A stretch of 35,551 nt of DNA from positions 1 to 35,551 of the forward strand of contig CAMBJF010000002.1 of assembly GCA_945867875.1 (NCBI GenBank), in the 5' to 3' direction. This document shows positions 23,962-26,117 of this stretch, in pieces. The translations under genes were made by a program, and so were the position numbers. Position 1 is the first letter of the stretch. Each line of letters opens with the position of its first letter. The DNA is from an uncultured Ruminococcus sp. GTDB taxonomy: Bacteria; Bacillota; Clostridia; Oscillospirales; Ruminococcaceae. The notes below the pieces were generated by a model that saw only the letters and a list, made by a program, of their open reading frames with translations, was not told where the DNA came from and did not search any database.

Positions 23962-23995
23962 ATAATTTCAGCCGCTCTCGGTTTCGGGAGCGGCT
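23962..23995 (+). terminator. Terminator after citrate synthase; left copy of an identical 34-bp repeat
   Basis: ATAATTTCAGCCGCTCTCGGTTTCGGGAGCGGCT, hairpin AGCCGCTC-tcggtttcg-GGAGCGGCT-type, followed by gtttt. Confidence 0.85.
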
Positions 23996-24026: not shown

Positions 24027-24055
24027 TTGACTTAATTAAATTAGCCTGATATAAT
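24027..24055 (+). promoter_or_regulatory. Sigma-A promoter of the accessory nuclease-like gene (TTGACT-17-TATAAT)
   Basis: 5/6 and 6/6 hexamers, 17-bp spacer, 30 bp upstream of the ORF. Confidence 0.8.
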
Positions 24056-24084: not shown

Positions 24085-25602
24085 ATGTTTAATGAGTATA
24101 TGTGGAAAACGTATCTTAATGCAGGCGGAAAAGACGTTGTGAAGATGTTTGAGGATAACTTTACGAAGAAAATGTCACCAAGCTATTATGATGAAATTTT
24201 AAACCTTCACAAAAATATATGTGCAGCTCCTATTGTCAGCAAGCGTGTATGTGAAGATTTAAAAATGCTTGCAACGGACTTGAAAAATAATGATTTCCTT
24301 TATGGCTGTTATTCCATAATAGATATGTTTAATGCGAAAAATTTTGATTGCACAATAGAAAACGTTATGAAAGGATTGTATGACGGGCTGAACGATACGG
24401 GCAAGGAAAAGCCCAATTATATGTTCAAAGAATTTGCTTTGGGTATTACCTACTATTCAACTTTTTTGGCGATAGAGTTTCCCGAAGCATTCATACCTTA
24501 TTATTTCTGTTATAATTACAACGTTCTTGAAAAAATAGCGGAAGAGTTTGAGATTGAGATGCCTGAAATTCCCGTGAAAAAGGATTACGAGGGTCGCTTT
24601 TTCCACTATGCCGAAATTTGTATGACACTGTGGGATTTCAGGAAAAAACATAATATGTCGCCCTATGAGCTTTGGGCATTTCTTTATGATTTTGCTCCCA
24701 AATACATCGGAGGCACGGACAGCTACATAATTAAAGATATTCCCGAACCCAAAGGAGCATATTTTATCGGCGGCTCAAAAGATGATATTTTCCTTGACGG
24801 AAACGAAGAAAAAATAACCTGCTGGCAGTGCGACCCTGATACAAGAGCCGGGGATATGATAGTTATGTACCTCAAAACGCCGGTCAGCGCAGTTGATTCG
24901 GTGTGGAGAAGTATTTCGGTAGGATTTAATGACCCATTCTTTTACTATTACAGATGCACATATATCGCCAGACCTGTTAGTATTAAGCGAATTACACAAA
25001 AAGAGCTTCAACAGGATTCCGTATTTAAAGAAGTGCCCATAGTCCGCAAAAATATGCAGGGAATAAACGGCGTGGAACTGTTGCCATCTCAGTACAATCA
25101 TTTAATGGATATTGCAGGTGCTGATGTTCCACGGCTTGAATTTATTGTTTCGGAAAGCGGTCAGGAGCTTATCAGAGAAAAAGATGTTGAAAACAAGCTT
25201 ATAATTCCTCTTTTGAAAAAACTCGGCTATAATGAAAATGAATACACAAAACAGCTTTACATTGAAATCGGCAATCATAATCACGCTATGATACCTGATT
25301 TTGTGCTTTTACCCAAACATTCAAAGGGACATTATTCGGCGTTTGCACTTATTGAAGCCAAGATTAAAATTTCAAGTCAAAAACAGCTTGAAGAGACAAA
25401 AACGCAGGCAAGAAGCTACGCAGTTCAGCTTAAATCAAAGTATGCGGCTATTGCTGACAAAAATAAGATATGGGTTTTAAGTTCGGATGATGATTATTCT
25501 GAGGAAATTTTTTCGGTTAGTTGGGATGAGCTTAATGATCCGGATGTTTTTTCAAAACTGCTAAAGCTTATAGGCGTAAATTCTAAAAACGCCAAGAAAT
25601 AA
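24085..25602 (+). CDS. Putative restriction/defence protein: N-terminal unknown domain + EVE/PUA-like segment + HsdR-N-type PD-(D/E)XK nuclease
   Basis: 505-aa ORF. Nuclease motifs: VENKLIIPLLKKLGY, IPDFVLL, FALIEAKIKI (D405..E424-x-K426), and QARSY (QxxxY, Q441-Y445). EVE-like: ITCWQCDPDTRAGDMIVMYLKTPVSAVDSVWRSISVGFNDPFFYYYRC. Confidence 0.75.
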   Translation: MFNEYMWKTYLNAGGKDVVKMFEDNFTKKMSPSYYDEILNLHKNICAAPIVSKRVCEDLKMLATDLKNNDFLYGCYSIIDMFNAKNFDCTIENVMKGLYDGLNDTGKEKPNYMFKEFALGITYYSTFLAIEFPEAFIPYYFCYNYNVLEKIAEEFEIEMPEIPVKKDYEGRFFHYAEICMTLWDFRKKHNMSPYELWAFLYDFAPKYIGGTDSYIIKDIPEPKGAYFIGGSKDDIFLDGNEEKITCWQCDPDTRAGDMIVMYLKTPVSAVDSVWRSISVGFNDPFFYYYRCTYIARPVSIKRITQKELQQDSVFKEVPIVRKNMQGINGVELLPSQYNHLMDIAGADVPRLEFIVSESGQELIREKDVENKLIIPLLKKLGYNENEYTKQLYIEIGNHNHAMIPDFVLLPKHSKGHYSAFALIEAKIKISSQKQLEETKTQARSYAVQLKSKYAAIADKNKIWVLSSDDDYSEEIFSVSWDELNDPDVFSKLLKLIGVNSKNAKK

Positions 25603-25632
25603 TTTCAGCCGCTCTCGGTTTCGGGAGCGGCT
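25599..25632 (+). terminator. Terminator after the accessory gene; right copy of the identical 34-bp repeat
   Basis: ATAATTTCAGCCGCTCTCGGTTTCGGGAGCGGCT, starting inside the ORF stop codon, followed by tttgtt. Confidence 0.85.
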
Positions 25633-25636
25633 TTTG

Positions 25637-26096
25637 TTATCCCCTATGCACATACATTCTCGTCATACCCCCACCGTCTTCCTGCACCATACACAGAAAT
25701 TCCCAGCCGTACCGCTCATAAAATGAGGTGTGGTCGGTGACGAGATAAAGGGTGTCGATGCCCTGTGACTTCATATCATCGCAGACATATCCAAGAAGCT
25801 TTCCCGCAATGCCGTATCCCCGCATATCCTCCTCGGTGTAAACGGCGCAGACATTTGGGGAGAGGTCTTTTCTGCTGTGAAAATCATTTTCTATGACCCC
25901 CCATTCCCCCGATGATGCGGTCACTTTCGTCCTTTTTTACAACATACCACTGCGGTATGGGACGTTCACCTTTGATACACACGTCTATGCTTTCAAGATA
26001 TGCCGATTTCGGTACGCCCCATTTTTCGTGAAACAACTCTGCGGCTTTTTCATTAAGCTGGGGGCAGTCTTTCAATTTTATAATTTTTATGTCCAT
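25637..26096 (-). pseudogene. GNAT-family N-acetyltransferase split by a +1 frameshift in a G6 run
   Basis: ORFs 26096..25884 and 25924..25637 join into one GNAT-like protein (..IIGGMG|VIENDFHSRKDLSPNVCAVYTEEDMRGYGIAGKLLGYVCDDMKSQGIDTLYLVTDHTSFYERYGWEF) if one base is removed from C6/G6 at 25897-25902. Confidence 0.8.
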
Positions 26097-26117
26097 AATT
26101 TCACCCGATTACAAAAT

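Follow-up and report, generated by a model that had tools for sequence, protein, structure and literature searches.

What does a gene do that joins a putative base-reading domain to a putative nuclease in one polypeptide, and that has no recognisable restriction partner beside it? The question is raised by an open reading frame at 24085–25602 on the + strand of the window (the whole stretch of 35,551 nucleotides of uncultured Ruminococcus sp. DNA that was analysed), which the original prediction took for a candidate single-gene, modification-dependent restriction system. The frame encodes 505 amino acids followed by a TAA stop codon, and a reading of the translation showed that the ORF is genuine and that the quoted motifs all lie where they had been placed. 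An AlphaFold model built with the family alignment (pLDDT 85.7, pTM 0.81) has three parts, which correspond over the whole ORF to a helical N-domain, an EVE/PUA-like domain and a PD-(D/E)XK nuclease domain of the HsdR-N type.

Database searches placed the protein in a family to which no function has been assigned. PHROG 37753 (function unknown) was matched across the full length of the protein with an E-value of 2.7e-79, and a homologue from D. proteolyticus also gave a full-length match. None of the PADLOC-DB models matched the window protein or two full-length Deinococcus homologues, and no NCBIfam model matched the window protein. Sequence searches of the PDB, both with the single protein and with profiles, returned no usable match; cGAS matches at E~0.1 were judged to be due to chance, and weak Pfam matches to Neurobeachin, Tn7_TnsA-like_N, WRKY and others were discarded.

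The nuclease domain is predicted at residues ~361–500 (25165–25584, + strand) from Pfam family matches, viral Foldseek matches and invariant residues. It contains the motifs VENKLIIPLL (about residues 368–377), PDF with D405, E424-A-K426 and QARSY (residues 441–445). Conservation was scored over 13 divergent homologues with 25–63% identity to the query, and across these E365, E369, D405, E424, K426, Q441, A442, Y445 and L449 are invariant. The claimed combination of PD-(D/E)XK and QxxxY is borne out by the invariance of D405, E424, K426, Q441 and Y445 and by a predicted PD-(D/E)XK-like core, in which residues 365–479 follow the order α-β-β-β-α-β in the AlphaFold model; a single-sequence model of the isolated domain reached a pLDDT of only 52.6. 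The window protein itself falls below the Pfam thresholds at residues 364–469 (HSDR_N, 21.5 bits, cut-off 25.1; HSDR_N_2, 20.2 bits, cut-off 25). Each of the two models matches 11 of the 18 family members at E<=1, and a related protein from Deinococcus NW-56 passes HSDR_N_2 with 36.6 bits against the cut-off of 25. The top viral Foldseek match was a protein with a type I R N-terminal (HsdR-N) domain (E=2.1e-4), and a family profile picked up the HsdR-N-like portion of a fusion with a DNA methylase (E=4.5e-7).

The middle domain (residues ~224–345; 24754–25119, + strand) had been described as EVE/PUA-like, and its quoted stretch ITCWQCDPDTRAGDMIVMYLKTP is present in this part of the protein. 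AlphaFold and Foldseek agree with that description in predicting a PUA/EVE-like fold for a β-rich unit that spans residues 225–344 of the model. When Foldseek matches were allotted to domains by size and secondary structure, the PDB entries ranked first were 2ar1, 2g2x, 1zce and 2gbs, which we take to be EVE proteins, followed by YTH and ASCH domains. The E-values for the model of the window protein were modest, from 1e-4 to 1e-3, and an EVE-domain protein stood beside the HsdR-N protein among the top viral matches. The Pfam EVE model PF01878 did not match the window protein or any other protein of its genome, and a homologue from Deinococcus QL22 scored 14.3 bits, below the cut-off of 23 (E=0.042). 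The fold match and this weak Pfam match suggest a predicted reader fold of the EVE/PUA superfamily. P220, G229, Q248, G256-D257, M261-Y262, P266, P284-F285-F286, Y288 and Q325-G326 are invariant in this part across the 13 homologues, and GD...MY and PFF motifs are among them. Because they are invariant in such divergent proteins, the motifs of the nuclease and middle domains are, on the strength of the alignment, more than chance resemblances. The loop KNMQGI at residues 322–327 (25048–25065, + strand) contains the invariant Q325-G326 and is almost invariant, yet is poorly modelled (pLDDT<50), and it is therefore a candidate DNA-contacting loop.

Folds of the EVE and YTH kinds are established as readers of bases. 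Some YTH and ASCH domains bind RNA, and their presence among the structural matches would also fit an RNA- or nucleotide-directed enzyme, whose PUA-type domain would read modified RNA or a nucleotide signal. We consider this very unlikely indeed, as EVE structures outrank those of YTH and ASCH domains and the nuclease has the complete DNA-cutting residue set of HsdR-N.

The original prediction had found no named family in the first ~220 residues, and this still holds; the region is confidently modelled as an all-helical domain at residues 1–215 (24085–24729, + strand). It comprises 11 helices between residues 4 and 213, with pLDDT mostly about 90, and has a conserved block near residues 138–172 in which PYYF is followed, in most members, by I.LP..P.KKDY.GRF.

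The gene has no obvious restriction partner. Pfam found no helicase domain in the 505-residue ORF, and the translations of ORFs at 18–30 kb of the window include no hsdM, hsdS, methylase or helicase gene next to it, so that the claimed absence of an SF2 helicase and of partner genes stood on both counts. Membership of a type I restriction-modification system was rejected, since there is neither motor nor partner gene. The upstream neighbours, identified by reading ORF translations, are secA and genes for aspartokinase and citrate synthase, and downstream lie a frameshifted GNAT gene and flagellar genes. This GNAT acetyltransferase gene (25637–26105, minus strand) is broken near a GGGGGAATGGGGGG run at about 25897–25910, either as a pseudogene or through a sequencing error. 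The G+C content of the window gene is 37.2%, against 47.2% for the window.

The neighbourhoods of homologues are varied. Most clostridial copies stand alone amid housekeeping genes, outside defence islands. On a Deinococcus plasmid the QL22 copy adjoins BREX pglZ and brxL, accompanied by DarT-family and N6 methylase genes, and the plasmid copy of D. proteolyticus has a type IIG restriction-modification gene four genes downstream. L017 lies in a region that also has Gabija (GajA/GajB) along with a type II methylase; in L022/L023 the copy comes after genes for an Eco57I-type methylase and for a ResIII protein, and the L020/L021 copy precedes a TPR/STAND-like ATPase. A MobA/MobL relaxase lies near the L009 copy and a ParB-like gene near that of L012. 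Directly upstream of the homologue, a protein with GIY-YIG and an Xre-type HTH recurs in L007, L012 and L017, and an HTH/sigma-region-4/alpha-CTD-like regulator in L007 and L012.

The methylase genes near the L017 and L022/L023 copies would fit classical restriction without a modification requirement, in which a stand-alone nuclease is matched by a methylase elsewhere in the genome. We give this little probability: at most homologous loci no methylase is adjacent, and EVE is a reader of modified bases, unlike the target-recognition domains of type I and II enzymes.

The BREX context bears on the chief rival to modification-dependent restriction, a back-up or abortive nuclease effector whose EVE-like and helical parts would respond to a signal of infection or to a mark made by the host, and whose HsdR-N domain would degrade any DNA, that of the host included. 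The QL22 copy lies directly beside pglZ, and the nuclease of NW-56, related through its HsdR-N part alone, sits between NADAR-DarT1 and BREX pglZ. Back-up effectors of the PD-(D/E)XK type, whose N-terminal sensors vary, are reported next to BREX (PMC12839542), and VcaM4I becomes toxic and cuts non-specifically once the EVE domain and linker are taken away (PMC7897488). Decayed copies also suggest a cost of carrying the gene, with stops or frameshifts in L007, L016, L017 and the G012 remnant, although these are draft assemblies and some of the lesions may be sequencing errors. Most clostridial copies, however, have no defence partner, so that the protein would have to sense its own trigger, and the established role of EVE and YTH folds is to read bases. 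Overall we judge such an effector unlikely.

The NW-56 protein belongs to a set of ~263-residue proteins that combine a short N-terminus with HsdR-N (L072, 7564–8355; L073, 7268–8062; L028, 7653–8444). They are solitary in Desulfovibrio and lie in a BREX/DarT/NADAR island on the Deinococcus plasmid; they form a sister group of single-gene nucleases.

The family is patchily spread through Clostridia, Desulfovibrio and Deinococcus plasmids. A contig search of genomes gave 20 loci, and profile searches added further copies; three Deinococcus plasmid records were matched, of which two include the EVE portion. Within the genus, 4 of 20 genomes carry the family, one as a 62-residue remnant with stops, and one genome (G003) has two copies at different sites. 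The wider samples gave 5/394 for the order, 2/399 for the phylum (one a match to the nuclease part only), 3/249 for the order of Anaerococcus and 5/199 for the Desulfovibrio family (four sharing the nuclease part only). No phage members were found among INPHARED phages or in IMG/VR. In the tree, Desulfovibrio copies branch among those of Clostridia, and two copies from the genus, P0001 and L025 (about 41% identical), lie far apart; acquisition has therefore probably been repeated and horizontal. A fixed housekeeping context for the homologues would have spoken against a defence role, and what was found is a family that is sparse, mobile and partly located in defence islands.

The predicted EVE and HsdR-N folds, the invariant D...ExK...QAxxY residues, the partial defence context, the patchy, cross-phylum spread, the low G+C content and the precedents of VcaM4I and of the predicted EVE-PD(D/E)XK enzymes together lead us to propose, with moderate confidence, that the gene encodes a type IV-like restriction endonuclease that depends on modification, acts alone and moves horizontally. 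In such an enzyme the EVE domain (~224–345) would probably flip out a modified base (5mC/5hmC or 6mA class) of the incoming DNA and read it. The PD-(D/E)XK domain of the HsdR-N type would cut close by, with no ATP-driven translocation. The helical domain at the N-terminus would probably mediate dimerisation, or else restrain the nuclease and add target contacts. Base reading, cleavage, phage restriction and the role of the N-domain are all inferred here.

How might a solitary gene of this kind have reached its site? The window gene is bracketed by a perfect 34-nt direct repeat, of which the upstream copy (23962–23995, + strand) includes the terminator hairpin that follows citrate synthase, and the downstream copy (25599–25632, + strand) includes the stop codon of the gene together with a terminator hairpin. 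The 30-base core of the repeat occurs at just two sites in the genome when up to three mismatches are allowed. Three sister genomes (G002, G004 and G018) lack the gene, and in each a single hairpin terminator of this type follows citrate synthase. In G018 the homologous blocks are 227 bases apart, as against 2.1 kb in the window; because the GNAT gene is also gone there, this locus is an imperfect empty site. Inside the insert lies a sigma-70-like promoter with an extended -10 (TTGACT-17-TATAAT, 11 of 12; 24027–24055, + strand).

A distant family copy from the same genus, about 41% identical to that of the window, is similarly bracketed by a perfect, promoter-like direct repeat of 39 nt (L025, the same as L003; 156–194 and 1778–1816). 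Another sister genome (G007) has one sequence related to this repeat (84% identical) at a gene-free place with partly alignable flanks. No further direct repeats of at least 28 nt spaced 300–6000 bases apart were found in 223 kb from these genomes, a non-random sample gathered around the family gene and two anchor genes; two cases are a small number. At other family copies no repeats stood clearly above control, with possible imperfect ones at L070 (27 of 32) and L071.

The paired 34-nt and 39-nt repeats hint at insertion of a solitary gene with a long target duplication. A doubtful extension of this idea is that the gene is a solitary cassette, consisting of promoter and ORF without a recombinase, which inserts at terminators or promoters with duplication of 34–39 nt of host sequence and owes its mobility to a system whose genes lie elsewhere in these Ruminococcus genomes. 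If true, such insertion would be an unrecognised route for single defence genes into chromosomes, and the long repeats at two distant copies offer a way into the question of how lone defence genes move from one chromosomal site to another. As a candidate single-protein restriction enzyme that is uncatalogued (having no PADLOC or NCBIfam model), the protein could read a modification that gut phages use in their DNA and is a possible reagent for modified-base mapping.

Among known systems, the type I HsdR N-terminal domain (Pfam HSDR_N and HSDR_N_2) shares the PD-(D/E)XK and QxxxY set with the window protein, which differs in lacking the SF2 motor and hsdM/hsdS and in being fused to EVE. The ~263-residue HsdR-N proteins of Deinococcus NW-56 and Desulfovibrio (L072/L073), solitary or in a BREX island, have a related nuclease domain but another, shorter N-terminal part and no EVE, while PHROG 37753 resembles the protein over its full length and carries no functional assignment. 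The EVE-HNH enzyme VcaM4I works on DNA that contains 5mC/5hmC, and T4gt phage was used to assay it; its P24, W82 and Y130 read the base that has been flipped out, and its Q128 intercalates (PMC7897488). Like the window protein, this enzyme joins an EVE reader to a nuclease in a single chain that has no translocase, but its nuclease is HNH rather than PD-(D/E)XK, its EVE domain is N-terminal and it has no helical N-domain. Closest in kind are the EVE-PD(D/E)XK proteins predicted in 2020 to be type IV restriction endonucleases (Bell et al., 2020; PMC7641849), which likewise combine EVE and PD-(D/E)XK in one polypeptide with predicted modification dependence. Compared with the domain descriptions in that survey, the window family adds a helical N-domain of ~215 residues, has a nuclease of the HsdR-N type and carries an EVE domain that has diverged beyond the reach of Pfam. 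The kind had thus already been predicted, and what is new here, within that comparison, is the helical N-domain, the HsdR-N-type nuclease, the strongly diverged EVE domain and the solitary, mobile habit.
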